Shown: positions 14,803-29,078, counted from the stretch's first letter. The stretch is DNA of 44,477 nt from a bacterium (GCA_030606215.1 JAUWGW010000011.1:1-44477), one strand, 5' to 3'. A program made the numbers and translations. Notes: generated by a model from the sequence alone, not told the origin.

Positions 14803-16356
14803 TTATTCCCATTCTATTGTGCTTGGCGGCTTTGAAGAAATATCATATACTACTCGATTTATCCCTTTGACTTCATTTATAATACGATTAGAGATTTCCT
14901 CCAGCAGCTCATATGGAAGTCTTGCCCAATGAGCAGTCATTGCATCCTCGCTGGTTACTGCCCTTATAGCAGCAACACTTTCATAGGATCTTCGGTCTCC
15001 CATAACACCTACCGTTTTTATTGGTAAGAGTACACAGAACGACTGCCACAACTTCCGATATAATTTTGCGCGTTTTATCTCATCTATCAAAATCCAGTCT
15101 GCCTGGCGCAAGATATCCAACCTTTTGGAAGTTACTGCGCCAATAATTCGTACTGCCAACCCCGGCCCCGGAAAAGGCTGCCTGTAAATAATGTCATCAG
15201 GCAGTCCCAGCTCTCTGCCGACGAGTCTCACCTCGTCCTTAAATAGATACTTAAGCGGCTCAACTAACTCAAATCTCAAATGAGGCGGTAGTCCTCCGAC
15301 ATTGTGGTGTGTCTTGATGGTTGCCGAAGGTCCACCGAAAACAGAGCCCGACTCAATTACATCAGGGTATAGTGTGCCCTGAGCTAAGAACTTAATCTTT
15401 CCAAGTTTTTTTGCCTGTTTCTCAAAAACATCTATAAAGATTCTCCCGATTATTTTGCGCTTTTTTTCAGGGTCTTTAACGCCTTTCAAAGCCTTAAGGA
15501 AAACACCCTTTGCGTCAACCATCCTCAAGTTAATACGACAATGACTTCTGAACCTCTTTTGAACAAACTTTGCTTCATCTTTGCGCAATAGACCATTATC
15601 AATAAATATGGCTATTAGACTCTTGCCTATCGCCTTATGCAGTAGTATTGTCAAAACAGAAGAATCTACGCCGCCACTTAATGCGCACAAGACCTTTTCC
15701 TTACCTATCGTTTCCTTTAGCTCATTAATGGAATTCTTGACAAAAGAATGCATACTCCATGAAGATTTGCAATTTGCTATATTGATGAGGAAATTTTTCA
15801 ATATCACTTTGCCTTTTGGTGTATGCACCACCTCGGGATGAAACTGAACTCCGTAGAACTTTCTTAGTCCATTCTCCATCGCTGCAATATCAGCATTCTC
15901 TGTTGACCCGATTATTCTGAAACCCCGGGGCAGTTTTGCAATCCTGTCTCCGTGGCTCATCCAGACTATCTCTTTTTTCGAAAGTCCCTTGAATAGATTG
16001 TCTCTGCACTTAGTCTTAAAGGTTACCTTGCCATATTCCCCTGCCTTAGCTTTCGCGACCCTGCCTTGTAAGCTCCTCGCCATGAGCTGGGCACCATAGC
16101 AAATTCCAAGGATCGGAATGCCCATACTAAATATATCCTTATCGCACATAGGGCTTCTTTTTAAAATAACGCTCGCTGGTCCGCCGGACAGGATAAGGGC
16201 TTTGGGAGACCGCTTCACAAGTTCGCAAGCACTAATATTATGAGCGACTACCTCGGAATAAACACCGCACTCTCTCACTCTACGCGCAATGAGATGGGTA
16301 TATTGTGAACCAAAATCTAAAATGGCTATCCAATCCTTTTCACATCCGCGATTCAT
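14803..16356 (-). CDS. guaA: GMP synthase (glutamine-hydrolysing)
   Basis: Aminates XMP to GMP. The N-terminal GATase begins [20 protein letters not shown] with nucleophile Cys in [12 protein letters not shown] and VQFHPEV. The PP-loop ATPase has [15 protein letters not shown], and the C-terminal dimerisation domain ends KPPSTIEWE. The start chosen is the ATG at 16354-16356 (MNRGCEKDW), which has GAGG eight bases upstream and gives a normal 517 residues. The frame stays open further upstream into carB, but that extension is not conserved. With this start it overlaps the carB stop by 17 bases. Confidence 0.95.
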
Positions 16357-17980
16357 CTTCTGCCTCATAGGTAGAATAATAGTAAGGAGTAAAAGCCTCA
16401 AATTCTGCGCCACAGGTATCTACCGACTTGAAAGTAGGTACAATTCCCTTCTCTTTGCGAAATTTATAAATTCGGCTTTCATCCATTCCTAAGAGTCTGC
16501 CCAATTGTTTGTCTGAAAACCCATATTCCTTAGCCCTGCGCAATAAATCAACTGAATCCTGAATCCTGAGTGCTGAGAGTTGACTCTCTAACTCCACAAT
16601 CTGTTTAATATTATGTAAGAACCATTTGTCAATCTTAGTTAATTCATAAATCTCATTTAGACTCATTCCTTCCTTTAAGGCATATTTTATGTAAAACACT
16701 CTCTCTGCATTAGGTATCCTTAAATTCTCTTCCAGACTTTCGTTCGAAACCTCACAACTCAGATCTTCTAATCCGGAAACCCCCACTTCTAAAGAGCGCA
16801 GCCCTTTCTGCAATGCTTCTTTAAATGTTCTACCAATAGCCATCGCCTCACCTACAGATTTCATAGAGGTGGTTAGAGAGGAATCCGCTTCAGGGAATTT
16901 CTCAAATGTAAAGCGCGGGATCTTCACTACACAATAGTCAATAGTCGGCTCAAAACAAGCTGGAGTCTTCTTAGTAATGTCATTTGGGATTTCATCCAGG
17001 GTATAGCCGATAGCCAATTTCGCTGCAATCTTTGCAATAGGGAAACCCGTAGCCTTAGAAGCTAAAGCCGAACTTCTTGAGACCCTGGGATTCATCTCAA
17101 TAATAACCATTCTACCGTCATCCGGATTCACGGCAAATTGAATATTTGAGCCTCCAGTCTCAACCCCTATTTCTCTAATACAGGAAATCGCCGCATCGCG
17201 CATCTTCTGATACTCTTTATCGGTCAATGTTTGCGCCGGGGCAACAGTAATTGAATCTCCTGTGTGAATTCCCATAGGGTCAAAATTTTCTATTGAGCAT
17301 ATAATGACAACATTGTCTTTTAAATCTCTCATTACCTCTAATTCAAATTCCTTCCAGCCAACAATGGATTCCTCAATCAATATCTCATTGATCATGCTTG
17401 CCTCAAGACCTCTCTCTGCAACCTCCTTAAATTCCTCCCTATTATTTGCTACACCCCCTCCTATGCCACCTAAGGTAAAACTTGGCCGAATAATCACAGG
17501 GAAGCCTATCCTCTCAACTACCTCAAAGGCTTCTTTCAAATTATAAGCTTTGTCACTCTCCGGTAAATCCAGTCCTATTCTCTTCATTGCTTTCTTAAAT
17601 AATCCTCTATCCTCCGCTTTCTTGATCGACTGTATACTTGCGCCTATCACCTCTACATCAATACCTCTTTCTGCTACCGCTACGGTAACATTTAAGGCAG
17701 TCTGGCCACCCAATGTTGGTAAAATAGCATCTGGCTTCTCTTCCTTAACTATTTCCTCCACTACCTCCGGGGTAATCGGTTCAATATAAGTTCTATCAGC
17801 TATTGCCGGGTCAGTCATGATAGTAGCAGGATTACTGTTCAGCAAAATCACCTTAAACCCCTCAGACTTCAAAACCTTACAAGCTTGTGTCCCTGAATAA
17901 TCAAATTCACAAGCCTGGCCTATTACAATCGGCCCTGAACCAATTATCAGAATTTTTTTAATATCAGTTCTCTTCGGCAT
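16340..17980 (-). CDS. carB: Carbamoyl phosphate synthase large subunit, N-terminal half (split CarB)
   Basis: The 546 residues cover exactly the first half of a normal CarB of about 1,070. The carboxyphosphate ATP-grasp domain starts [20 protein letters not shown] and includes [31 protein letters not shown]. The oligomerisation domain follows, with [19 protein letters not shown] and [16 protein letters not shown]. It ends [16 protein letters not shown], precisely where the second ATP-grasp half would begin, and the stop lies inside guaA. The carbamate-phosphorylating half is not in this window. Split carB genes are known in some archaea and bacteria such as Aquifex, so this is probably a working half whose partner is elsewhere. 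Thirty bases separate it from carA. Confidence 0.94.
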
Positions 17981-18010: not shown

Positions 18011-19249
18011 CTACATCTTAATCCTCATTAAATCAACAAATTCCCCGAATAAATATTGCGCGTCGTGAGGACCGGGAGAAGCTTCAGGATGAAATTGCAC
18101 TGAAAATACGGGCAGTGTCCTGTGCCTCATTCCCTCACACGTGCCATCGTTCAAATTTATATGTGTTATCTCTATATCTTCATTGCCCACCATATAATAC
18201 TTTTTCTCTGTTTTCTCCCCCATTCTTACACAGAATCCATGGTTCTGAACCGTTATAGCTACTTTGCCTGTCTTTAAATCTTTAACCGGGTGATTTGCTC
18301 CATGATGCCCGAATTTAAGTTTGTAAGTCTTACCACCGAGGGCTAATCCCAGCATCTGATGCCCTAAACAGATGCCCATAATGGGCAGTTTATAATTGGC
18401 AGTTGATGATTGATAGATGAGTTGCTTCACAGTCTCTACAACATAGGGGACACCGGCAGGGTCACCGGGACCATTGGAAAGTAGCAGTCCATCGGGTTTC
18501 ATCTTCAGAATTTGCTCAGCAGTCGTTTTCGCAGGAACAACTACTACATGGCAACCCAAGTTAACCAGGCTTCTTAAGATATTATATTTTACCCCGCAGT
18601 CAACAACTATCACTTCAAATCTATCTGTCTCTCGGAGACTAACCCCTGCGCAAGCAGGGACTGCGGTTACGTCTGTCTTCTGGTTTCTGGTATCCGGCAC
18701 CTGGTTTCCCGGAACACCCACCAAAGGTGGGTCGGGTTTCTGGTTACTCCAACCATATGTTTGGCCGCATGCAACTTCCTTGACCAAATCCCTGCCAACG
18801 AGACCCTGCGAAGACTTAGCCTTTTTAACCAGACTTTTATCGTCTAAATCTTCAGTAGAGAGCACTGCTCTCATTGCTCCCTGTAACCTAATATGTCTGG
18901 TAAGCGCGCGTGTATCTATGCCCTCTATCCCCATTATATTATTTTCCTGTAGATAATCGTCTAAACTCTTCTGTGAACGCCAGTTGCTAACAATGCGACT
19001 GCACTCTTTAACGACAAAACCTTCTACGAAAGGCTTTCTTGATTCAACATCCTCCGAATTTACACCATAGTTACCAATAAGAGGATAGGTCATGGTGACA
19101 ATCTGACCTTTATAGGAAGGATCCGTGAGGATTTCTTGATAACCGGCCATACTGGTATTGAAAACTACCTCACCAAATCTCTCGCCAGTTGCGCCGAAAG
19201 AAGAACCTTCAAAAATCCTGCCGTCTTCTAAAGCTATCTTTGCCTTCAT
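18011..19249 (-). CDS. carA: Carbamoyl phosphate synthase small (glutaminase) subunit with an in-frame repeat insertion
   Basis: Supplies ammonia from glutamine for carbamoyl phosphate (pyrimidine and arginine synthesis). The N-terminal CPSase domain starts [14 protein letters not shown] with [17 protein letters not shown]. The C-terminal class I GATase has [11 protein letters not shown] with the nucleophile Cys and [11 protein letters not shown]. At 412 residues it is about 40 longer than usual. The excess lies at about 169-210 between the two domains, after YGW and before [14 protein letters not shown], and it is encoded by repeat-like DNA. The reading frame stays intact through it. Active-site residues are all present, so the enzyme is probably functional. 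It is the first intact gene of the series carA-carB-guaA-hisH-hisF-pyrG-purF. Confidence 0.95.
18620..18745. repeat. Palindrome-bearing repeat inserted in frame in carA
   Basis: This stretch encodes the extra 42 residues of CarA. It contains two perfect hairpins: ACCCACC-AAA-GGTGGGT at 18716-18732 and CCCTGC-GCAA-GCAGGG at 18644-18659. It also contains several copies of a CTGGTTTCTGG/ACCAGAAACC motif. The flanking codons rejoin the normal CarA alignment, so this is an insertion into the interdomain linker. The hairpin style matches the intergenic palindromes elsewhere in the window. Confidence 0.7.
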
Positions 19250-19419: not shown

Positions 19420-19841
19420 GAGTGAAGCCACCAGATGCATTTAGAATCCTTGCTGAACGTCCCAACGAGGAATAGCAGACAAAGATTTCCTTTTCGGTTT
19501 TTCCAAATTCAGACACAGTCTTTGGCAATTCATTATTTTTAATCCAATTGCCAATATTTTCACCAACCAGGCCTGGTATCATCAAAGCACGCCCCATACA
19601 AACCGCTTTTACGAAAGGAGCTCCCATACTCAGCTACGCCCAAACGCGTATCTTCTACATTCACCTGCACTAATATTTCGCCGTAACCTTCATAGAACCT
19701 CTTATAAATCTCTATGCGCCGATCCATATCCGGGGAACTTTTGACCCTGCCTTCACTATCAAGCTCAAGGCCGGGGTCAATACCGCAAACATTCTCCCTG
19801 CAGAACAGGAAACTTCCTGGGAAAAGTGCACCATCTATCAT
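19420..19841 (-). pseudogene. Remnant of an FMN-binding glutamate synthase family gene
   Basis: Two fragments in different frames match the FMN-binding glutamate synthase family. The upstream part reads GIDPGLELDSEGRVKSSPDM, then RRIEIYKRFYEGYGEILVQV and NVEDTRLGVAEY. Directly after the EY codons, in another frame, comes GAPFVKAVCMGRALMIPGLV, GENIGNWIKNNELPKTVSEF and KEIFVCYSSL. In intact members these blocks lie more than 150 residues apart, so a large internal deletion with a frameshift has joined them. The N-terminus and the C-terminal tail are also missing. The remnant lies between gdh1 and carA, next to other glutamate-metabolism genes, and its expression would have been under the attenuator at 19891-19967. 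Confidence 0.8.
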
Positions 19842-19875
19842 TCACACAACTGCTGCATAATCCTTTCTTCTTCAT
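19777..19875 (-). CDS. Truncated small cysteine-rich protein
   Basis: An ATG at 19873-19875 with AAAGGAG eight bases upstream opens a 32-residue frame, MKKKGLCSSCVNDRWCTFPR followed by KFPVLQGECLRY. It has two CxxC-like pairs and looks like the start of a small zinc- or iron-binding protein. The frame ends abruptly where the DNA becomes glutamate-synthase-like sequence in another frame, so the original gene was probably cut by the same deletion that ruined its neighbour. It is the first reading frame after the third ANTAR attenuator. It may be translated, but function is unlikely. Confidence 0.5.
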   Translation of the reverse strand: MKKKGLCSSCVNDRWCTFPRKFPVLQGECLRY

Positions 19876-19890: not shown

Positions 19891-19967
19891 AAAAGAAAAA
19901 CGCCCTCCTTAGCAAACTTTGCTGCTAAAAAGGACGTCGTTATCCAGTCTTTCCTAACTTTGGAAAG
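19891..19967 (-). promoter_or_regulatory. ANTAR-type attenuator between gdh1 and the carA series
   Basis: On the minus strand, 25 bases after the gdh1 stop, hairpin P1 is CTTTCC-AAAGTTA-GGAAAG (19949-19967). Three bases on, P2 is GGAT-AACGAC-GTCC (19932-19945). Both loops have A1 and G4, the reported ANTAR RNA signature. A terminator with a 15-bp stem (three wobble pairs, arms 19923-19937 and 19900-19914) follows, with a T-rich run to 19891. Its 5' arm begins inside the P2 loop, so P2 and terminator cannot form together. No promoter separates it from gdh1, so it would gate read-through from gdh1 into the damaged genes and on to carA. Confidence 0.72.
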
Positions 19968-19991
19968 AGTATGAAACAAGGAAATTCATCA

Positions 19992-21239
19992 CTAAATCCA
20001 ACCACGAAGTTCCATTGCTTCGACCACACGCTCAACAGCAACCACATAAGCCGCTTGCCGCATATTTATGCTGTATTCCTTTGAAGTATTTAGTACAGAG
20101 TCATAAGCAGACGTCATTTTTTTATTCAGACGTTCATGAACTTCTTTTTCGTCCCAGTAATCCATATTGAAATTCTGGACCATCTCAAAATATGAAACTG
20201 TCACGCCACCAGCATTACACAGGAAATCAGGTAATACGTGAACACCATTTTTACAAAGAATATCATCCGCCTCTGGTGTAGTTGGCCCGTTAGCTAACTC
20301 CGCGAGGATCTTGGCCTTAATGTTTGGGGCATTCTCCTCGGTAATAACATTTTCCAAAGCGGCAGGAACAAGTATATCTACTTCGATTTCCAGAATTTCC
20401 TCATTTGAAATAGATTCAGCATCTGGGAAATTGATTACCGAACCTGTTTTGGCTTTATATTCATGAACCACCTCTGGTTCAATTCCTTCCTTACTGAATA
20501 TGCCTCCTTTGCTGTCACTAACCGCTATTATCTTAGAACCGAAGAGAGTTTTAGCAAGATATGCCGCATTATACCCAGCATTCCCATAGCCCTGTATAGC
20601 AACGGTAGCTTCTTTAAGATCTACACTGCATTCTTTAGCTGCTTCACGAACAGTGTACATACCACCCCTGGCAGTTGCATCGCCGCGCCCTGCAGAGCCG
20701 CCTATACTGAGCGGTTTCCCAGTAATAACACCGAACTGATTCTTCCCGACAATTTTTGAGTACTCGTCCATCATCCAACCCATTATTTGAGGGTTTGTGT
20801 AAACATCAGGTGCAGGAATGTCTCTATCCGGTCCAATTAATTGCCATACCCGATTGATATATGCACGACTCAAGCGTTCCAGCTCACCTTTGGACATCTG
20901 TTTGGGATTACAGATAATCCCGCCCTTCGCTCCTCCAAGAGGTAAGTCAAGAAGAGCGCATTTCCAGGTCATCCAGGCTGCAAGAGCCCGTACAGTATCA
21001 ATCGTTTCATCAGGATGAAATCGAATTCCCCCTTTTGTTGGACCTCTCGCATCATTGTATTGAACTCTGAACCCCTGGAACACCTTAACAGAACCATCAT
21101 CCATACGAATTGGTAACGATATATGAAATTCACGCATCGGAATACGAAGGATTTCACGCACACCAGAATCTAACTTTAGAATCTTCGCACACTCACTCAA
21201 TTGTCTCCCTGCAATCTCAAATGGATTAAGTTTTGCCAT
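19992..21239 (-). CDS. gdhA: Glutamate dehydrogenase 1
   Basis: A 415-residue hexameric-type enzyme interconverting 2-oxoglutarate plus ammonia and glutamate. The substrate domain has [11 protein letters not shown] and the catalytic-lysine block [10 protein letters not shown], then [20 protein letters not shown] and [20 protein letters not shown]. The Rossmann domain has [14 protein letters not shown]. The C-terminal region includes [10 protein letters not shown] and [17 protein letters not shown]. It is a paralogue of the enzyme at 29097-30350. It is transcribed alone from its own promoter through an ANTAR leader, unlike the second copy, which lies in an operon without such a leader. Confidence 0.95.
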
Positions 21240-21290
21240 TTTCTCCTATACCTTCCCTTTTGCTGTCTTCTTCATAGTACTCTATCCATG

Positions 21291-21373
21291 ACAAAATAAA
21301 AAAAGGCATTCTTTCCCCCTTCTTTGGGGTTTCAAGAACACCTTTGTTCCATTTTGATACTAACGTTGTATCA
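21291..21373 (-). promoter_or_regulatory. ANTAR-type attenuator in the gdh1 leader
   Basis: On the minus strand: P1 TGATAC-AACGTTA-GTATCA (21355-21373), five bases, then P2 GAAC-AAAGGT-GTTC (21336-21349). Loop positions 1 and 4 are A and G in both. The terminator's 5' arm AAAGGTGTTCTT starts with the P2 loop itself and pairs over 12 bp with AAGAATGCCTTT (21302-21313), enclosing a CCCC/GGGG mini-hairpin and followed by a long T-run (21291-21304). P2 and terminator are therefore mutually exclusive. This is the cleanest copy in the window and lies between a strong promoter and the gdh1 start. Confidence 0.82.
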
Positions 21374-21379
21374 GCTTGT

Positions 21380-21408
21380 ATTATAATCTATAATTATTGG
21401 TCGGTCAA
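21380..21408 (-). promoter_or_regulatory. gdh1 promoter
   Basis: Minus-strand TTGACC (21403-21408), a 17-base spacer and a perfect TATAAT (21380-21385). Transcription would begin near 21373, at the first base of attenuator hairpin P1. Upstream lie repeated TTTTTCTGAA tracts (21411-21430) that could serve as an UP element. A run of ten G/C bases (21441-21449) separates this from the gltB-3 stop. Confidence 0.8.
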
Positions 21409-21465
21409 ACAAAAAAATTCAGAAAAATTCAGAAAAAGTGGGGGGGGGCAAACCTCGCTTAGAAG

Positions 21466-22284
21466 TTAGTATGCGTACAACCTTCCATAAGGTCGGTGGG
21501 TATGGGGAATTAATTTTACAAAGTCAGTATCCATAACCTCTTTAAAATCCAATGAAAAACAAGCACAATACTCCTTTAGATATTTTCCTAACATTTTATC
21601 ATCCTCATCATTCAGCCTGAATTTCTTCACCTCTTTACCTAACTGGTAATCTTCTATATCACCCCGAATATACATTGTTCCGCCATGCATACCTGTGCCA
21701 CAATAGTTGCCAACCAGTCTATAATCCATAGTCGGTAGTCCATAGCCCTTTATCTTCTTCTGTGGACTATGAACCGTGGACCGTTGACTTCTTTCCCGGT
21801 TTAGACCCAGTACTACTATAAGTCCGCCTGCCATATATTCTCCCAAAAAATCTCTTACAGTACCCCCTATTATGATTACCGGATATAAATCCTTATAGGA
21901 TTTCATATGAATTCCAGTTCTATAACCAGCACTCCCTCTTATATAAATCTTACCTCCTCGCATAGAGTGTCCGGCGATATCGCCAACATCACCATGGACA
22001 ACAATTTTACCAGCATTCATCGTATTCCCAATCCCATCCTGCGCATTAGAATTAACAACAATAGTCGGACCGTCCATAAAAACAGCTAAATCATTGCCTG
22101 GCACTCCATTAATGGTAATTTTTACATCACCGGCTAATCCATCCCCAATATAGCGTTGACCATTGACATTATCTAAGACGAGTTCCTCAGTGCCACTATT
22201 GACAGCCTGATGGACTTTCTCGTTCAGCTCCTTGTAGTATAAACCCCTTGCATTTATTCTAAATACTTTGGACTCTTTCTTCAT
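21466..22284 (-). CDS. Glutamate synthase, GXGXG-domain subunit (GltB C-terminal domain) with repeat insertion
   Basis: A 272-residue subunit equivalent to the C-terminal right-handed beta-helix domain of GltB. It shows the repeated G-x-x-G pattern: DGLAGDVKITINGVPGNDLA, GIGNTMNAGKIVVHGDVGDI, HSMRGGKIYIRGSAGYRTGI and FLGEYMAGGLIVVLGLN. The motif resumes at VGNYCGTGMHGGTMYIRGDI. Between these last two blocks, about residues 163-190 (HSPQKKIKGYGLPTMDYRL within it) form an insertion encoded by tandem GTCCAC/CTATGGACTA repeat DNA. In bacteria this domain is normally fused to the others; separate subunits are the archaeal arrangement, also found in some bacteria. It overlaps the flavoprotein gene by four bases and ends the operon. 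Confidence 0.88.
   Translation of the reverse strand: MKKESKVFRINARGLYYKELNEKVHQAVNSGTEELVLDNVNGQRYIGDGLAGDVKITINGVPGNDLAVFMDGPTIVVNSNAQDGIGNTMNAGKIVVHGDVGDIAGHSMRGGKIYIRGSAGYRTGIHMKSYKDLYPVIIIGGTVRDFLGEYMAGGLIVVLGLNRERSQRSTVHSPQKKIKGYGLPTMDYRLVGNYCGTGMHGGTMYIRGDIEDYQLGKEVKKFRLNDEDDKMLGKYLKEYCACFSLDFKEVMDTDFVKLIPHTHRPYGRLYAY
21715..21798. repeat. GTCCA-type inverted tandem repeat inserted in gltB GXGXG subunit
   Basis: Read on the minus strand, one arm has TCAACGGTCCACGGTTCATA and AGTCCACAG, then a purine-rich linker, then the inverted arm GCTATGGACTACCGACTATG continuing GATTATAGACTGG. CTRTGGACTA units occur in both arms in opposite orientation. A sister copy lies at 25056-25128. Both are read in the same frame, giving HSPQ...MDYRL in each protein. 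Confidence 0.72.
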
Positions 22285-23582
22285 ATTACCGCGACCTCTC
22301 CTGCTACAAGATGTTTTCTATACTCCTTAGGCAAACTGATCAAACCGAAGTCTTCTTTTAAAAGATGTTCCTTAAAACTCGCGGCATCAACTTTATCCTT
22401 AATAAGACCTGTGTAAATCCCTGCTCGTTCTATATCGCTTACAAAGATAGCACCTACTACCTTATTGTTTTTTAAAACAATTTTCTTATACACAGAATTC
22501 TTTTGATCAAAACACTCCAAAACTTGATACCCTTTTCCCTCAGGATAAGTTTCCCCCACTGAAATAGTCGGAATTCCACACAGCTCAACAGAATTCATGG
22601 CGAAGCTTCCTGGATATTCTTTTCTCGCTCCAGCCATATTGAAACCTGCAATTTTCCCCTGCCTCACCGCTGCCGGCCAGATAGCAATGGGACGCTTCAT
22701 TTCCAGGAGTAAATCTTCTGCCTCACAGCAATCTCCTGCAGCGTAAATATCTTTGATATTTGTCTGCAAAAAAGCATCAACTAAAATTCCTTTATTTGTC
22801 TTAATTGGGGTATTTTTTACAAGCTCTATATTTGGTCTAACACCGACAGCAACAATAACTAAACTCGCTGAAATCTTTTTCCCATCTTTTAGAATAACTC
22901 CTTCTGCTCTCTTATTTTTGCCCTTTATCTCCACAACAGTATTATTAGTAATCAATTCACAACCCTTCCTGCCCAAAGCATTTTCAATTATACTTGATGC
23001 CTTTTTATCAAAAGTTGCAGATAGAACTCTGTCAGCTAATTCGACAATGACTACTTTAATCTTTAGTTCCATCAGAGCTTCAGTTGCCTTCAAGCCAATT
23101 AACCCTCCACCGACAACAACCGCTTCCTTAACTTTGTTAGTCCTTATATAGTTTTTTATGTTCCGGGCATCAGCCAGCCTGGTAAAAGTAAATACACCTC
23201 CTGAATTCAAACCTTTTATCTCCGGTATAACAGGCATACCACCAGCAGCTATAAGCAACTTATCAAAAGGGAGCTTTCGGTCACCTGCGAGAACAACTTC
23301 TTTTTTCTTCAAATTTAGCTTTGTTGCCTTCCTATTTAAAATCAGCTCTACTCTATTATCTTTATAAAAATCTTCTCCACGATACGGCATTTTATCAAGG
23401 GTTACCTTCTCGCCTAATAAATAAGATATCAAAGGTCGGGAATAATTAATATGTGGTTTACCCCGCACAAAGATGCGGGGTTCGTCGGAAATAACGGTTA
23501 TCTCACCCTTCTTATCACATTCACGAATAGCTTCTATCGCAGCAATTCCACCTGCAGAATTACCGATAAGGACATACCTCAT
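22281..23582 (-). CDS. FAD/NAD(P)-dependent oxidoreductase of the glutamate synthase operon
   Basis: A 433-residue flavoprotein of the NADH oxidase / nitrite-reductase-like group. The FAD site is MRYVLIGNSAGGIAAIEA, the NAD site is AVVVGGGLIGLKATEALMEL, and the second FAD block is IKDIYAAGDCCEA. It probably passes electrons from NAD(P)H through the four-cluster ferredoxin to the FMN subunit, replacing the usual GltD. An eight- to eleven-residue insertion lies at about 36-46 (RIFVRGKPHIN), between ISDEP and YSRPLISY, where relatives read straight through. The DNA there is a perfect palindrome. The gene overlaps both neighbours by four bases. Confidence 0.88.
   Translation of the reverse strand: MRYVLIGNSAGGIAAIEAIRECDKKGEITVISDEPRIFVRGKPHINYSRPLISYLLGEKVTLDKMPYRGEDFYKDNRVELILNRKATKLNLKKKEVVLAGDRKLPFDKLLIAAGGMPVIPEIKGLNSGGVFTFTRLADARNIKNYIRTNKVKEAVVVGGGLIGLKATEALMELKIKVVIVELADRVLSATFDKKASSIIENALGRKGCELITNNTVVEIKGKNKRAEGVILKDGKKISASLVIVAVGVRPNIELVKNTPIKTNKGILVDAFLQTNIKDIYAAGDCCEAEDLLLEMKRPIAIWPAAVRQGKIAGFNMAGARKEYPGSFAMNSVELCGIPTISVGETYPEGKGYQVLECFDQKNSVYKKIVLKNNKVVGAIFVSDIERAGIYTGLIKDKVDAASFKEHLLKEDFGLISLPKEYRKHLVAGEVAVI
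23460..23481. repeat. 22-bp palindrome inserted in frame in the flavoprotein gene
   Basis: ACCCCGCA-CAAAGA-TGCGGGGT: eight-base perfect arms and a six-base loop. It encodes the extra residues after DEP near the N-terminus of the oxidoreductase. Its style matches other GC-rich palindromes in the window. The insertion keeps the frame and falls between strands of the FAD domain. Confidence 0.7.
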
Positions 23583-24025
23583 TTCTCCTCCTCACAAACA
23601 ATTGCTTCGTTAGGACAATTCTTCACACAAACAGGTACTTCTTCACCCACACATAAGTCACATTTAGAAGCTATCTTTTTACCTTCAATATTTCTTGAGA
23701 TAACTCCAAATGGACAGACCATAATGCACATCCAGCAACCTATACATTTATCCTCATCGCACAAGACAGCCCCTGTCTTTTTATCCCGATACATTGCCCC
23801 GGTTATACACGCCTCTAAACACGGAGCATCTTCACAATGACGGCATTGAAGGGCAAACGACACATACCCTTTCTCTTCTACAATAATCCTTGGGATAGGT
23901 TTTGGATACTCCCCCTTATATGCCTTTATTATATTCTTCGTCTTGGAATGTTGCACAAGGCAATGAACTTCACAGAGCCTGCACCCCATACAATACTCTT
24001 CCCTTATATAGATCCTCTTCACCAT
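23579..24025 (-). CDS. Four-cluster ferredoxin-like electron carrier (HycB family)
   Basis: A 148-residue iron-sulphur protein with four cysteine motifs in the HycB/DmsB order: CMGCRLCEVHC near the N-terminus, CRHCEDAPCLEACITGAM, CIGCWMCIMVCPFGVI and a closing CDLCVGEEVPVC...CPNEAI. This pattern holds four [4Fe-4S] clusters and works as an electron wire. Sitting between the FMN subunit gene (seven-base overlap) and the flavoprotein gene (four-base overlap), it probably connects NAD(P)H oxidation to the glutamate synthase core. Confidence 0.9.
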   Translation of the reverse strand: MVKRIYIREEYCMGCRLCEVHCLVQHSKTKNIIKAYKGEYPKPIPRIIVEEKGYVSFALQCRHCEDAPCLEACITGAMYRDKKTGAVLCDEDKCIGCWMCIMVCPFGVISRNIEGKKIASKCDLCVGEEVPVCVKNCPNEAIVCEEEK

Positions 24026-25575
24026 GCCTCCCCCGCTGGTTTTATTCCGAGCAATTTCAAGTCGGTGTCGGACAAACCTACCCCCCTCAACTGTTCACGG
24101 TTTCCTCTTAAACTCTCAATTGCATTTATGCCCATGCCACCGAGCATCTCTTTTATCTCCAGGCTCCAGGCACGCAGTAAATTAACTAACCTTCGAGTGC
24201 CTATATCCGGGTTGAGCCTCTTGGTTAGATACGGGTCCTGAGTAGCAATACCCCAGTTACACTTTCCCGTGTAACAGCGCTGACAGAGGTTACACCCCAT
24301 TGCTACCAGGGCTGCTGTGCCGATATAGACAGCATCTGCACCTAAGGCAATAGCCTTGATAACGTCAGAGCTTGACCTTATACCTCCGGCAGCAATCAAA
24401 GAAGCTTGATTTCTAATGCCTTCTTCCCTCAAACGATTATCCACAGCGGCAATTGCTAACTCAATCGGTATCCCCACATTATCCCTTATTACTGTGGGGG
24501 CAGCTCCTGTCCCTCCTCGCAGACCATCTATAGCCACAAAATCTGCCCCTGCTCTAACTATCCCAGAAGCAATGGGAGCTACATTATGCACAGCAGATAT
24601 TTTTACCCCTACCGGTTTACTGTACCGAGTAGCCTCTTTCAATGCAAAGATTAGCTGCTTCAAATCCTCAATTGAATAAATATCGTGATGCGGCGCAGGA
24701 GACAAAGCATCTGTCCCCACAGGAATCATTCTGGTCTGACTAATCTCCTCTGATACTTTCTCACCTGGCAAATGGCCGCCAATTCCTGGTTTTGCACCCT
24801 GGCCAATCTTTATCTCTATAGCAGCTCCTGCTTCTAAATATTCCCTATGCACTCCAAACCTTCCCGAAGCTACCTGGACAATTGTATGAGCACCATATTC
24901 ATATAAATCTTTATGTAGTCCTCCTTCTCCCGTATTGTAGAATGTCCCGATTTCTTTAGCAGCCCTTGCAAGAGATATGCAGGCATTCAAACTGATAGAA
25001 CCATAACTCATTGCGCTGAATAGAATCGGCGTTTCCAGTTTGAGTTGAGGACTTAATTTAGTCAATAGTCGATAGTCCATAGCCGATGGTATCTTATTTT
25101 TTTCTGTGGACTGTGGACTGTGAGCTGTTAACTCAATTCTATCCGGCTTCCTTCCAATATAAGTACGCAGTTCCATTGGTTCTCGTAACGGGTCAATTGA
25201 AGGATTTGTAACCTGAGAAGCATTAAGCACAATATGGTCCCAGTATACAGGATAGGGTTTATCACAGCCCATCCCGGTTAAAAGCACACCGCTTGTTTCA
25301 GCCTGTTTGGTGATATTTCTAATGACCTGAGCACTCCAGTTAGCATTTAGCTTAAACTCGGAAGGATTGCGTTTTATTATAATTGCGCCGGTTGGGCAAA
25401 TGGTCTCACAGAAATGACACCCAACGCATTTTGTGCTGTCAGAAGTTACCGTATCAGTCTCAGGATCATAAGAATGTGCATCATTAGAACACATTCTCAC
25501 GCATACCTGACAGGCGATGCATTTTCCCTCATCCCTTTCTATAATAAATTCCGTTGGTGTTGGGCGTTTAGCCAT
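24019..25575 (-). CDS. gltB: Glutamate synthase FMN/Fe-S subunit (GltB central domain) with repeat insertion
   Basis: Taken from the ATG at 25573-25575 ([10 protein letters not shown], preceded by AAAGGG), 518 residues. An N-terminal two-cluster ferredoxin domain has [11 protein letters not shown] and [14 protein letters not shown]. The FMN barrel has [50 protein letters not shown] and [20 protein letters not shown]. The [3Fe-4S] ligands are in [15 protein letters not shown]. It condenses 2-oxoglutarate with glutamine-derived ammonia. About residues 150-174 ([20 protein letters not shown] within it) are an insertion of the same repeat family as in the GXGXG subunit. The start overlaps the GATase subunit stop by eight bases; a longer frame upstream is not needed. 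Confidence 0.92.
25056..25128. repeat. GTCCA-type inverted tandem repeat inserted in gltB FMN subunit
   Basis: Minus strand: CACAGTCCACAGTCCACAG, a purine-rich linker, then GCTATGGACTATCGACTATT followed by GACTA. It is the same family as 21715-21798. The right arms agree almost base for base over GCTATGGACTAYCGACTAT, and the left arms share AGTCCACAGAA. It is read in the same frame as the other copy, encoding HSPQ and later MDYRL. Confidence 0.72.
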
Positions 25576-26659
25576 TTTTCCCTTTAAGCCTCCCGATAAC
25601 CGGCTCTCCTGCCTTAGGCATCCAGACTTCATCCGGTGTTGGGCAAACCTCTCGGATTGCTGATTCCTCAGACGCTATGTAAAGTTTATTCCCAGAAGTT
25701 GCAGCTACCAAAGGCCTCAGCTTAATCCTATCATTCAATCCCACCATAGTATTTGTATTTGCTACGATAACACTAAAAGGTCCGTTAACCAGCGCACTTC
25801 CATAAATAATACGGAGTGCTTGTGAAATTTCTCTCTTCTCCTCAGACTGTCTCTCTATATCATCCCAAAAAGGAGCTGTTAATATATCAGCCGCTACTTC
25901 AAAAGAAAGTTTATGTTTCCTGACTAAAAGGTCAAAAAGATATGTTATTACTTCAGTATCCGTAAAAAAGGCACAAACATATCCATAATTTAGAAGGAAC
26001 CTTTTGTTTATTCCATAGGAGGAAATCTCCCCATTGTGTATAACCGACCAATCCAGAAGTCCAAATGGGTGTGCACCACCCCACCAACCAACTGTATTGG
26101 TAGGAAATCGGCCATGCGCTGTCCAGATGTAAGCTTCATATTCTTCTAATCTATAGAATCTTCCAATATCCTCCGGATATCCTACGCCTTTAAACACACC
26201 CATATTCTTGCCACTTGAGGCAACAAAAGCGCCGCTAATTCGAGTATTTATCTCTATTACTGTCTTAGCCACAAAATCTTCTTCTGTTATATCATAATGC
26301 AACTTTTTCTTTTCTTCCTTAGGTTGTAGGAAATACCTCCATAAGAGTGGCCTATACTTTATGGACTTATCTTCTTTTGTAGGTATAATTTCGTCCTTTA
26401 CTATTTTATAATTATCCCTGATGTATTCCTCCGTTTGAACCATGGCAGATTTATTTTCAAACATCATATGAAAACACCAGTCTCTTTTGAACTCCGGGTA
26501 TATTCCATAAGCGGCGAAACCGCCACCTAAGCCGTTGGCTCGTTCGCGCATGGAAGCAATTGAGGTAATTATGTCTCTACCTGAAAACCTCTTGCCACTC
26601 TGCTCCATTATCCCGATTATGCCACAGCCACTTATATCCTTTTCGTGAAACCTATCCAT
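25568..26659 (-). CDS. Glutamate synthase, class II glutamine amidotransferase subunit
   Basis: A 363-residue stand-alone version of the GltB N-terminal domain. The nucleophile is Cys12 in [10 protein letters not shown], so an 11-residue propeptide must be cleaved, as is usual for archaeal-type subunits. Other GATase residues are in [20 protein letters not shown] and [14 protein letters not shown], with [14 protein letters not shown] following. It hydrolyses glutamine and feeds ammonia to the FMN subunit. It is the first gene of the glutamate synthase set, 65 bases downstream of glnA1. No promoter or terminator is evident in that gap, so it is probably co-transcribed with glnA1 under the ANTAR leader. 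Confidence 0.92.
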
Positions 26660-26724
26660 TGGAATCTCGCCCCATAGCTCCAGGACCTTCTATCAAAATA
26701 TGCTTTATGATAAGAATCACACTC

Positions 26725-28059
26725 TTAAAGGATTGGAAGAAGCTTATCTAACTCATATTTGGTTAACTGTATCCTATAATCCTCCCATTCTTTTTTCTTC
26801 AGTTCAATAAATCTGCTAAACACATGCAGGTCTAATGCTTTTCTGACAAGCTCACTCTGTTCAGTAATGAGAACTGCTTCTCCCAAACTGTCAGGCAGCG
26901 ATTCAATCCCTAACTCCTTTCTTTCGTTACCGGAGAGATGATACAGATTCTTCTCCATATGCTCTGGCAGTTTATATTCCTTCTCTATTCCCTCCAGTCC
27001 CGCATGAAGCATCACTGCAAATGTGAGGTAAGGATTACATGCCGGGTCGGGACATCTAAGTTCTACTCTGGTGGCTTTTTCCTTACCCGGATGATAACCC
27101 GGAACACGAATCAGTGCTGAACGATTTCTCCTTGACCAGGCAATATACACAGGCGCTTCATATCCCGGAACAAGCCTCTTATAAGAGTTTACCCACTGTG
27201 CAAATATGGCACTCATCTCCCGCGAATGCCGCAGTTGACCAGCAATAAATTTCTTGGCTATATCGCTTAAATGGTATTTATCATCTTTGGAGAAAAACGC
27301 ATTCTTATCACCTTTAAAAAGTGACTGGTGAGTATGCATGCCACTTCCATTCTCACCAAACAAAGGTTTTGGCATAAATGTGGCATACACCCCATACTTC
27401 TGCGCTATCTCTTTAACCACTATCCTGTAGGTGAGCACACTATCAGCCATATCCAGGGCATCCGTGTATCTCATATCAATTTCGTGCTGACTTGGTCCTA
27501 CCTCATGATGTGAATATTCTATAGGAATACCCATTGCTTCCAGGCAGAGAATTGTATCTCTGCGGAGGTCACTCGCTACATCCAGGGTTGTTAAATCAAA
27601 ATATCCACCCTTATCCAAAACCTCTGTCAGCTGGTCATTCTTAAAATAGAAATATTCTAACTCAGGCCCAAGATAATAATGGTCAAAACCCATTTTCTTC
27701 ATTCGCTCTAATGCTCTCTTTAAGACATAGCGCGGGTCACCTTCATAAGGCTCCCTTTCAGGAGTCAGAATATCACATATCATTCTGGCAACCTTCTTCT
27801 CCTCCTGCGGCCTCCACGGGACAATCTGAAAGGTAGATGGGTCCGGCATTGCTACCATATCGCTTTCTTCAATATCCTGATAACCGGTAATTGAAGAACC
27901 GTCAAAACCCATACCGTTTTCCAATGCCCCTTCCAACTCGTTATCTGTAATTGCAAAGCTTTTCACCTGACCCAAGATATCAGTGAACCATAATCTAATA
28001 AACTTCACATCCTGCTCTTTAACTATCTGTAAAACCTCTTCTTTAGTCTTTCCACTCAT
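26725..28059 (-). CDS. glnA: Glutamine synthetase 1 (GSI)
   Basis: Makes glutamine from glutamate, ammonia and ATP. The start is set at the ATG at 28057-28059, preceded by repeated GGAGG; the frame is open further upstream but that part is the ribosome binding site. The 444 residues include FDGSSITGYQDIEESDM, LGPELEYFYF with metal-binding glutamates, the NGSGMHTHQSLF loop and WSRRNRSALIRVPGY. The length and the tail NLYHLSGNERKELGI fit the GSI-alpha type without an adenylylation module. It is about 90% identical by eye to glnA2 at 31419-32750. It is transcribed through a leader with two ANTAR attenuators. Confidence 0.96.
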   Translation of the reverse strand: MSGKTKEEVLQIVKEQDVKFIRLWFTDILGQVKSFAITDNELEGALENGMGFDGSSITGYQDIEESDMVAMPDPSTFQIVPWRPQEEKKVARMICDILTPEREPYEGDPRYVLKRALERMKKMGFDHYYLGPELEYFYFKNDQLTEVLDKGGYFDLTTLDVASDLRRDTILCLEAMGIPIEYSHHEVGPSQHEIDMRYTDALDMADSVLTYRIVVKEIAQKYGVYATFMPKPLFGENGSGMHTHQSLFKGDKNAFFSKDDKYHLSDIAKKFIAGQLRHSREMSAIFAQWVNSYKRLVPGYEAPVYIAWSRRNRSALIRVPGYHPGKEKATRVELRCPDPACNPYLTFAVMLHAGLEGIEKEYKLPEHMEKNLYHLSGNERKELGIESLPDSLGEAVLITEQSELVRKALDLHVFSRFIELKKKEWEDYRIQLTKYELDKLLPIL

Positions 28060-28121
28060 CTTCTCCTCCTCCTCCTTTTCTAACTCCATTAGATGTTTAC
28101 TATCTTATATTTCTCCTCATT

Positions 28122-28218
28122 AAAAAAGGCATCCAATCCCAATTTGCCATCGCGGCATCAGACTGGACGCCTATGTCCGATTACTACCTGCCTGTTTGCG
28201 ACAGGCGTGCTTTGTAGT
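28122..28218 (-). promoter_or_regulatory. Second ANTAR-type attenuator in the glnA1 leader, P1 loop interrupted by a palindrome
   Basis: P2 is GGAC-ATAGGC-GTCC (28165-28178), with A1 and G4 in the loop. The terminator's 5' arm AGGCGTCCAGTC starts in that loop and pairs over 12 bp (two wobbles) with GATTGGATGCCT, followed by a T-run (28122-28127); together they span 28122-28172. Four bases upstream of P2 a stem ACTAC/GTAGT (28214-28218 with 28183-28187) encloses a loop beginning AAAGC, as P1 should. The loop is 26 bases long because it contains a GCCTGT-CGCAA-ACAGGC hairpin (28190-28206). This looks like a normal P1 with a palindromic repeat inserted in its loop. The interruption is an inference. 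Confidence 0.62.
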
Positions 28219-28219
28219 T

Positions 28220-28318
28220 AAAACATAAAAGGCGCTCTTTTCTGAACGCCTTTGTTCCTTTTCTTCACACCGCAAGAGACCAAAAATCTTACGGAGCTTA
28301 AGCACCAACCTTGTGCTT
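28220..28318 (-). promoter_or_regulatory. First ANTAR-type attenuator in the glnA1 leader
   Basis: P1 is AAGCAC-AAGGTTG-GTGCTT (28300-28318), P2 is GAAC-AAAGGC-GTTC (28244-28257); both loops have A1 and G4. The terminator AAAGGCGTTC-AGAAAA-GAGCGCCTTT (28228-28253) reuses the P2 loop and 3' arm as its 5' arm and is followed by TTTTATGTTTT. P1 and P2 are 42 bases apart here, much further than in the gdh1 leader, because an extra hairpin (CCGTAAGA/TCTTGCGG, within 28266-28295) lies between them. P2 and its stem are identical in layout to those of the gdh1 leader. Confidence 0.78.
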
Positions 28319-28334
28319 TACTCTATTGTCTAAT

Positions 28335-28364
28335 AATTTACCACAAGGACTTAACCCTTGTCAA
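28335..28364 (-). promoter_or_regulatory. glnA1 promoter
   Basis: Minus-strand TTGACA (28359-28364) lies 10 bases after the GAF-ANTAR stop codon. After an 18-base spacer comes TAAATT (28335-28340), a four-of-six -10 match. Transcription would start near 28328, just ahead of attenuator hairpin P1. The -35 is perfect and the -10 is modest. Confidence 0.65.
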
Positions 28365-28373
28365 GAAAATTCG

Positions 28374-29078
28374 TCACTTCGACTTCTTCATATCTTGAGC
28401 TAAAATAATTGCATCAGCTACTTCACGCATTGCTTTACGGTGATCCATGCTATACTTTTGAAGTTTTAGGTAAGCTTCCTCTTCTGTTAAACCCTCCCCC
28501 TTCATCAAAATTCCTTTAGCGCGCTCAATCCTTTTGCGCGCTTCCAACTCCTCTTGAATTACCCTGGTTCTTACCATCAACTCAGTATTTTCAATAGCTA
28601 CAGCCGCCTGGTTAGCTATGGATGTTAAAATATCTATCTCTGTTTCGGTAAAGTCATGCGGCTCCGGAGTATAACAATTTATCACCCCGATAACTTTTCC
28701 CTTCACCGCTAAAGGAACACATAGAAGAGAGCATAGTCCTTCTCTTTTAGCGATGTCCTGATATTTATATTCTTTTTCCTCAGTAACATCCTTAACAGCT
28801 AAAGGCTTATTCTCTTTAGCCACCTTCCCTGCAATTCCTTCCCCTATTTTTAAAGGGGGCTTTTTGTTATACTCTTCACTGATGCTCTGCGTGGCTCGAA
28901 TCACGAGCTCGTTCTTTTTTTCATCAATAAGCATCAATGAACATATATTAGAACCCATTGCCTGTGCGGTTACCACTACTATAAGGCGAAGAATATCTTC
29001 TAAATATAACTCTGAAGCAATAGCTTTGCTTATTTTGGATAAAGCTTTAATCTGTTCTTCGTAAGGTGTAGTATCCAT
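28374..29078 (-). CDS. GAF-ANTAR RNA-binding antiterminator, probable nitrogen regulator
   Basis: A 234-residue protein. A GAF domain occupies about residues 20-165 (LEDILRLIVVVTAQAMGSNI, KIGEGIAGKVAKENKPLAVK, LCVPLAVKGKVIGVINCYT, ILTSIANQAAVAIENTEL). The C-terminal ANTAR domain at about 175-230 has RKRIERAKGILMKGEGLTEE, EAYLKLQKYSMDHRKAMREV and ADAIILA. ANTAR domains bind paired small RNA hairpins and stop an overlapping terminator from forming. The signal sensed by the GAF domain is not visible. The gene follows gdh2 by 18 bases and stands directly upstream of the glnA1 promoter and attenuators, and identical RNA layouts precede gdh1 and the carA series. It is the obvious regulator of all of them. 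Confidence 0.9.
   Translation of the reverse strand: MDTTPYEEQIKALSKISKAIASELYLEDILRLIVVVTAQAMGSNICSLMLIDEKKNELVIRATQSISEEYNKKPPLKIGEGIAGKVAKENKPLAVKDVTEEKEYKYQDIAKREGLCSLLCVPLAVKGKVIGVINCYTPEPHDFTETEIDILTSIANQAAVAIENTELMVRTRVIQEELEARKRIERAKGILMKGEGLTEEEAYLKLQKYSMDHRKAMREVADAIILAQDMKKSK

Follow-up and report, generated by a model that had tools for sequence, protein, structure and literature searches.

A GAF-ANTAR regulator and candidate antitermination leaders in a nitrogen assimilation locus of an uncultured bacterium

Antitermination by ANTAR proteins has already been linked with nitrogen genes (PMC3369931; PMC8934654; PMC7496416). In Ramesh et al. 2012 (PMC3369931), an ANTAR regulon with at least thirteen sites in six transcription units was predicted in Desulfotomaculum acetoxidans, and sites were also predicted at glutamate synthase genes of D. 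reducens and at glutamine synthase, P-II, and ammonium transporter genes; at that time, no GAF-ANTAR protein had yet been characterised. Hexaloops are required in published descriptions of ANTAR targets. In this study, a stretch of 44,477 nucleotides (nt) from an uncultured bacterium (GCA_030606215.1 JAUWGW010000011.1:1-44477, referred to as the window) was analysed, in particular its region 19891-29078, in which an earlier note had described one GAF-ANTAR protein and four RNA attenuators (copies 1 to 4), each with two hairpins, P1 and P2, and a terminator. Very probably, the locus encodes a nitrogen assimilation regulon controlled by one-component ANTAR antitermination. Strong support for the mechanism comes from covariation, from specificity within the genome, and from the relatives; RNA binding, dimerisation on a long helix, the signal, and the direction of control are inferred.

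The leader elements and their regulator

All four elements are encoded by the minus strand. P1, a P2 hexaloop, and an intrinsic terminator with a 5' arm that begins within the P2 loop make up copies 1, 3, and 4, a layout that the earlier note had given for all four; copy 2 passes the filter for an overlapping terminator, but a hairpin interrupts the loop of its P1. Likewise, A at loop position 1 and G at position 4 (A1/G4), claimed for all eight loops, are carried in an ordinary hairpin loop by seven, the exception being the interrupted P1 loop of copy 2, while the 7-nt P1 loop noted in three copies is real in copies 1, 3, and 4. The elements were scored with a covariance model, R1, for which eight leaders from other organisms and no window sequence were used; it was restricted to leaders with 7-nt loops because P1 was misaligned when MAFFT was given leaders with 6- and 7-nt loops together.

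Copy 1, the glnA1 leader (R1 30.3 bits, E 7e-6 in the window), spans 28317-28221, since the start at 28300 given earlier misses its P1 (AGCAC-AAGGTTG-GTGCT, 28317-28301). Its P2 (GAAC-AAAGGC-GTTC, 28257-28244) overlaps the terminator at 28253-28228, and the long P1-P2 linker (28258-28300) carries a third hairpin, CCGTAAGA/TCTTGCGG, in the predicted folds. Upstream, at 28335-28364, is a sigma-70-like promoter (TTGACA-18-TAAATT, with TG before the second hexamer; 10/12 matches). Copy 3, the leader of gdhB (21293-21373; R1 46.1 bits, E 8.5e-10), has P1 GATAC-AACGTTA-GTATC (21372-21356) and P2 GAAC-AAAGGT-GTTC (21349-21336), followed by a terminator, and it is also preceded by a sigma-70-like promoter at 21380-21408 (TTGACC-17-TATAAT; 11/12 matches). 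Among the promoter-like sites of the 11-kb region, that of copy 3 ranks best and that of copy 1 is among the next three. Copy 4 (19892-19968), assigned to class B, was found by the strict scan and the P2-plus-terminator filter described below, with an R1 score of 13.4 bits; it has P1 TCTTTCC-AAAGTTA-GGAAAGA, P2 GGAT-AACGAC-GTCC (19945-19932), and a terminator at 19938-19899.

Copy 2 (28122-28218; R1 16.5 bits, E 0.02) stands in tandem with copy 1 and has P2 GGAC-ATAGGC-GTCC (28178-28165), followed by a strong terminator. In its P1, the stem ACTAC/GTAGT encloses AAAGCAC and then a complete 17-nt hairpin, GCCTGTcgcaaACAGGC (28206-28190). The idea that this inner hairpin is a dispersed repeat was unsupported, as its sole genome match (up to 2 mismatches) is itself. 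Two related loci (L042 at 9877 and L044 at 6417) have tandem second leaders with a P2 of the type GGATAAAGRCGTCC and an upstream hairpin, TTCG-GCGTG-CGAA, without A1/G4; a second tandem copy may be less bound by the P1 rule, copy 2 being another such case. When the RNA was folded, the terminator was the lowest-energy state in all four full leaders. In nascent RNA ending 8 nt past P2, the probability of P2 was 0.91-0.99 in copies 1, 3, and 4 and only 0.06 in copy 2.

The regulator gene (28374-29078, minus strand) lies directly upstream of copy 1, as the earlier note had placed it, and encodes a protein of 234 amino acids with a GAF sensor, a long helix, and a C-terminal ANTAR RNA-binding domain (Pfam GAF_2 2.8e-25; ANTAR, PF03861, 4.5e-20, 71.6 bits against a cut-off of 27.3). 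In a domain search of the whole 1.52-Mb genome, it was the only ANTAR gene. The AlphaFold2 model (pLDDT, a per-residue confidence score, 91.7) comprises the GAF domain, a helix at residues 145-195, and two ANTAR helices, and the long helix is predicted to be suited to dimerisation. At the positions by which EutV of Enterococcus faecalis contacts RNA, K143, Y164, M172, and R175 are identical, and K147 is replaced by R. The GAF domain is closest in sequence and fold to those of EI-Ntr/PtsP (PDB code: 3trc; about 27% identity), the next NCBIfam match being NifA. Since the EI-Ntr GAF binds glutamine (PMC4848567), glutamine is perhaps the signal, a first guess by analogy that is held with somewhat less than even confidence; 2-oxoglutarate and P-II are the alternatives.

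Specificity in the genome and covariation in relatives

When the window was scanned for elements in which a P1 hairpin and a P2 hexaloop, both with A1/G4, are combined with a terminator beginning in the loop of P2, copies 1, 3, and 4 came up in full, and copy 2 by its P2 and terminator alone, paired with a different hairpin. With stricter settings, three elements were found in the window as compared with 0.04 per dinucleotide shuffle. Independently of any model, 19 genomic sites match the P2 pattern RRAYANNGRYGTYC, and an overlapping terminator is present at 4 of these, which are exactly copies 1-4, and all four sites share a locus with the genome's only ANTAR gene. The covariance-model search proposed in the earlier note was carried out on the window and genome, and copies 3 and 1 were the two best matches genome-wide. 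Other R1 matches in the genome (contigs C2, C22, and C33; 14.7-17.9 bits) lie in coding-like DNA, have no overlapping terminator, and were rejected.

The comparison was extended to 80 related loci that encode close homologues of the GAF-ANTAR protein. The loci come from Omnitrophota, Aerophobota, Desulfobacterota/Myxococcota, Actinomycetota, and other groups, and nearly all are oriented with the GAF-ANTAR gene on the plus strand. In these loci R1 gave 55 matches, 50 on the plus and 5 on the minus strand, and a broader model, R2, gave 54 matches in the window and loci together. In the 54 R2 leaders, 96.3% of the pair cells were formed, as compared with about 35% when the 3' partner was shifted by one column. 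The compensatory changes that had been proposed as a check were found in both P1 and P2 stems, with changes on both sides in seven of nine pairs, and the covariation score was reached by 0 of 500 shuffles; the outcome was the same with 32 leaders. Since the alignments were fitted to the model, an additional model-free test considered hairpins in the 35 nt 5' of P2-plus-terminator sites with no loop requirement, and both A1 and G4 were present in 16 of 29, compared with 0.8 in shuffled sequences. Matches to R2 at E<=0.05 were found in 7 of 11 genomes with ANTAR genes and in 0 of 14 without (one-sided Fisher p about 7e-4, calculated by hand).

In the relatives, like leaders are found 5' of amt, glnB, glnA, glt, gdh, and GAF-ANTAR genes. 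In G001, a genome of the window's family, two tandem leaders lie 5' of porin, amt, glnB, glnA, and glt genes, and a further tandem pair on contig C63 follows gdhB and is the counterpart of copy 4. Three tandem attenuators follow purF in G008. The GAF-ANTAR gene itself is preceded by the leader in G035, in G046, and in many Omnitrophota, which suggests autoregulation. In an Aerophobota genome (G041), near-identical copies of one ANTAR leader occur in several places (L126, L127, L130, and L131), including sites 5' of a small helix-turn-helix-like open reading frame (ORF) and of an unidentified ORF of 467 residues, as if the leader itself had been duplicated and dispersed.

Loop size, linkers, and competing explanations

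The P1 loops of the relatives are of 7 nt (n = 23, consensus AANGTTR) or 6 nt (n = 15). In the 7-nt P1 loops A1 and G4 are each present in 22 of 23, and in the P2 loops A1 is present in 41 and G4 in 44 of 48. While the seeds of R1 had 7-nt loops, a P2-first search that used no model yielded nine 7-nt and eight 6-nt P1 loops, where shuffled sequences gave 0.9 and 0.7. When loop size is mapped on a tree of 87 GAF-ANTAR proteins, it is accounted for by 4 changes, versus 10.4 with shuffled labels (0/500), and the supported clade that includes the window's protein has the 7-nt loop in 14 of 15 labelled rows. P1 departs from the hexaloop of published descriptions, its loop being of 7 nt in copies 1, 3, and 4 as well as in the majority of the clade's leaders, and the P2 loops are of 6 nt. 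M172 of EutV has been proposed as a gauge of loop size; this Met is kept in every labelled homologue and, therefore, does not account for the loop size. Residue 209 of the GAF-ANTAR protein, two residues N-terminal of the conserved Met in the RNA-binding helix, is Y or F in every homologue with a 7-nt loop and variable in those with a 6-nt loop, which may merely reflect lineage.

The P1-P2 linkers measure 42-43 nt in copy 1, where an internal hairpin is present, about 6 nt in copy 3, and about 2 nt in copy 4. For eut leaders, the sources (PMC3369931, PMC8934654) give linkers of 5-12 nt, a sharp cut in function at 14 nt, and its abolition by a 20-nt extension, and for actinobacterial ANTAR leaders a linker of 2-25 nt is accepted. 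Both class-A leaders of G001 have a hairpin at the same place in the linker, with other bases; to judge from these three sequences, the linker hairpin could bring P1 and P2 close.

The proposed mechanism can be described as follows. In the off state, each leader would fold its terminator, and transcription would end before glnA1-glt, gdhB, or carAB-guaA-hisHF-pyrG-purF. Once nitrogen status is sensed by the GAF domain, the dimeric protein would bind P1, with its 7-nt loop, and then P2, with its 6-nt loop, on the nascent RNA; P2 and the terminator being mutually exclusive, RNA polymerase would then read through. The tandem copies 1 and 2 would form two gates in series, and copy 4 is probably mainly an internal gate on read-through from gdhB, because no promoter-like site precedes it. 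A more specific scheme is tentative and, on balance, doubtful: a clade-specific code of a 7-nt P1 (AANGUUR) and a 6-nt P2, with some linkers bridged by a hairpin, in which P1 would serve recruitment and P2 would be the antitermination hairpin, the two being non-equivalent, and in which the GAF signal (probably glutamine) would set both ammonia assimilation and glutamine-consuming biosynthesis.

Several observations weigh against an ANTAR regulon of this kind. Copy 2 is without an ordinary P1 loop, the class-A model gives copy 4 a weak score, and the linker of copy 1 is longer than the eut range. In the protein, the EutV contacts R168, N173, and R177 are replaced by Q, D, and A. Four of the seven ANTAR genomes positive with R2 had supplied R2 seed sequences. 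Finally, the regulon mixes assimilatory and glutamine-consuming genes, which leaves the sign of control ambiguous.

It could be supposed that these are ordinary terminators at operon ends or between genes, with chance hairpins upstream, and that the GAF-ANTAR protein controls something else. Indeed, all four are intergenic, where intrinsic terminators are common, and the odd P1 of copy 2 would be in keeping with chance. However, two of the elements directly follow promoter-like sites and precede glnA1 and gdhB, the covariation of P1 and P2 already contradicts such an origin, the P2-plus-terminator sites genome-wide are only these four, and like leaders recur in relatives, so that this supposition is very improbable. 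That the leaders are metabolite riboswitches or T-boxes acting independently of ANTAR is hardly credible: the Rfam search of the window gave no match at the gathering threshold, the leaders are seen solely in ANTAR-bearing genomes, and the conserved part is merely two small hairpins with A1/G4 loops, the layout of ANTAR targets (PMC3369931), even though a terminator overlapping an alternative fold is typical of riboswitches and the target genes belong to amino-acid metabolism.

A third possibility accepts the leaders as ANTAR targets and holds that some copies, mainly 1 and 2, are weak or decaying relics on account of their 7-nt P1 loop or of a long linker with a hairpin in it, only copies 3 and 4 being fully working. 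The linker limits of EutV (PMC3369931, PMC8934654), the interrupted P1 of copy 2, and the low covariance-model scores of copies 2 and 4 speak for it; yet 7-nt loops are the rule in the window's regulator clade, and the linker hairpin recurs in two G001 leaders at the same place with different bases. Partial decay is unlikely.

Gene order and comparison with known systems

In the genome assembly (1.52 Mb in 34 contigs, 92.9% complete), the minus strand of the window has these genes head to tail, as identified by Pfam, NCBIfam, and ORF order: glnA2, nadE, glnB, gdhA, GAF-ANTAR, copies 1 and 2, glnA1, five glutamate synthase genes, copy 3, gdhB, copy 4, a tiny ORF, carA, carB (N half), guaA, hisH, hisF, pyrG, and purF. 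The first gene after copies 1 and 2, glnA1 (26725-28089), encodes glutamine synthetase (Pfam Gln-synt_C 1.6e-129) and is followed by a split glutamate synthase set (21466-26659; GATase, FMN/FeS synthase, ferredoxin, NAD(P) oxidoreductase, and GXGXG by Pfam). The second glutamate dehydrogenase gene, gdhB (19992-21239; Pfam ELFV_dehydrog 4.6e-82), comes after copy 3, and carA (18011-19249) is the first large gene after copy 4. By NCBIfam, carB (16340-17980, minus strand) covers residues 1-545 of 1058 and is thus an N-terminal half; no C-terminal half adjoins it in the window, and relatives have two neighbouring carB pieces.

The tiny Cys-rich ORF (19777-19875, minus strand) is conserved in 11 relative loci (e.g. 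L141 at 8607, L144 at 5979, L043 at 5570, and L048 at 7609) with the motif KGLCxxCxNDxxCxFxRxFPVxxCEEF, mostly just 5' of carA or pyrG or near the GAF-ANTAR gene. Its end differs in the window (LQGECLRY), possibly due to a frameshift.

An ammonium transporter (PF00909) is present in 14 of 14 control genomes and was not found in the window's genome (G000, 92.9% complete), so that the idea of an amt leader elsewhere in it was rejected; ammonia may enter by diffusion, or an amt gene may lie within the missing 7%. The regulon, called complete in the earlier note, can be so described only for an assembly of this completeness without an amt gene.

Judged from its sequences, the system appears to behave as an ANTAR antitermination regulon, with most of the defining features tested being present. 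It hints at a nitrogen circuit in Omnitrophota, Aerophobota, and the phyla next to them, and it offers a compact set of one protein and four RNAs, with dozens of natural variants in uncultured phyla, that is amenable to in vitro study. The asymmetry of 7-nt and 6-nt loops bears on the sequential binding of P1 and then P2 by an ANTAR dimer, and on the M172 gauge, both proposed for EutV.

In the EutV system of E. faecalis (PMC3369931, PMC8934654), with its eutP, eutG, eutS, and eutA leaders, there are also several dual-hairpin attenuators per locus, with A1/G4 loops, a P2 that overlaps the terminator, and the ANTAR residues K143, Y164, M172, and R175. However, EutV is a phosphorylated response regulator that serves ethanolamine use through hexaloops in both hairpins, whereas the window's protein is a one-component GAF protein tied to ammonium assimilation and a 7-nt P1 loop. 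NasR/nasF of Klebsiella oxytoca (PMC7496416) is likewise a one-component sensor-ANTAR system that controls nitrogen assimilation by antitermination, but it has a NIT nitrate sensor and one site, unlike the GAF and four sites of the window. Clostridial NitR-type regulators near ammonia assimilation genes (mentioned in PMC4676874) share the tie of an ANTAR antiterminator to this function; Clo1313_2030 is a response regulator (receiver-ANTAR), and nitR of C. acetobutylicum is reported with an antisense RNA. The regulons of D. acetoxidans and D. reducens are alike in having multiple attenuators on genes of the glutamate synthase, glutamine synthetase, P-II, and ammonium transporter type, but they belong to another phylum, and in the available text of PMC3369931 the search was set for hexaloops and attenuators on carAB-guaA-hisHF-pyrG-purF are not mentioned for them.

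The four-site regulon is therefore not new in kind, and the claim of novelty made for it was too strong, since multi-site nitrogen regulons had been predicted in 2012 (PMC3369931). No earlier report of a matched GAF-ANTAR/RNA pair was found in the literature on NitR, Omnitrophota, and GAF-ANTAR, subscription papers and supplements being outside the search. What looks new is such a matched pair across uncultured phyla, the extra P1-P2 linker hairpin within the window's family, the attenuator before the glutamine-consuming genes carAB, guaA, hisHF, pyrG, and purF, and the 7-nt P1 loop (AANGUUR) tracking one regulator clade; as compared with the four-site arrangement, this loop is the more novel part.

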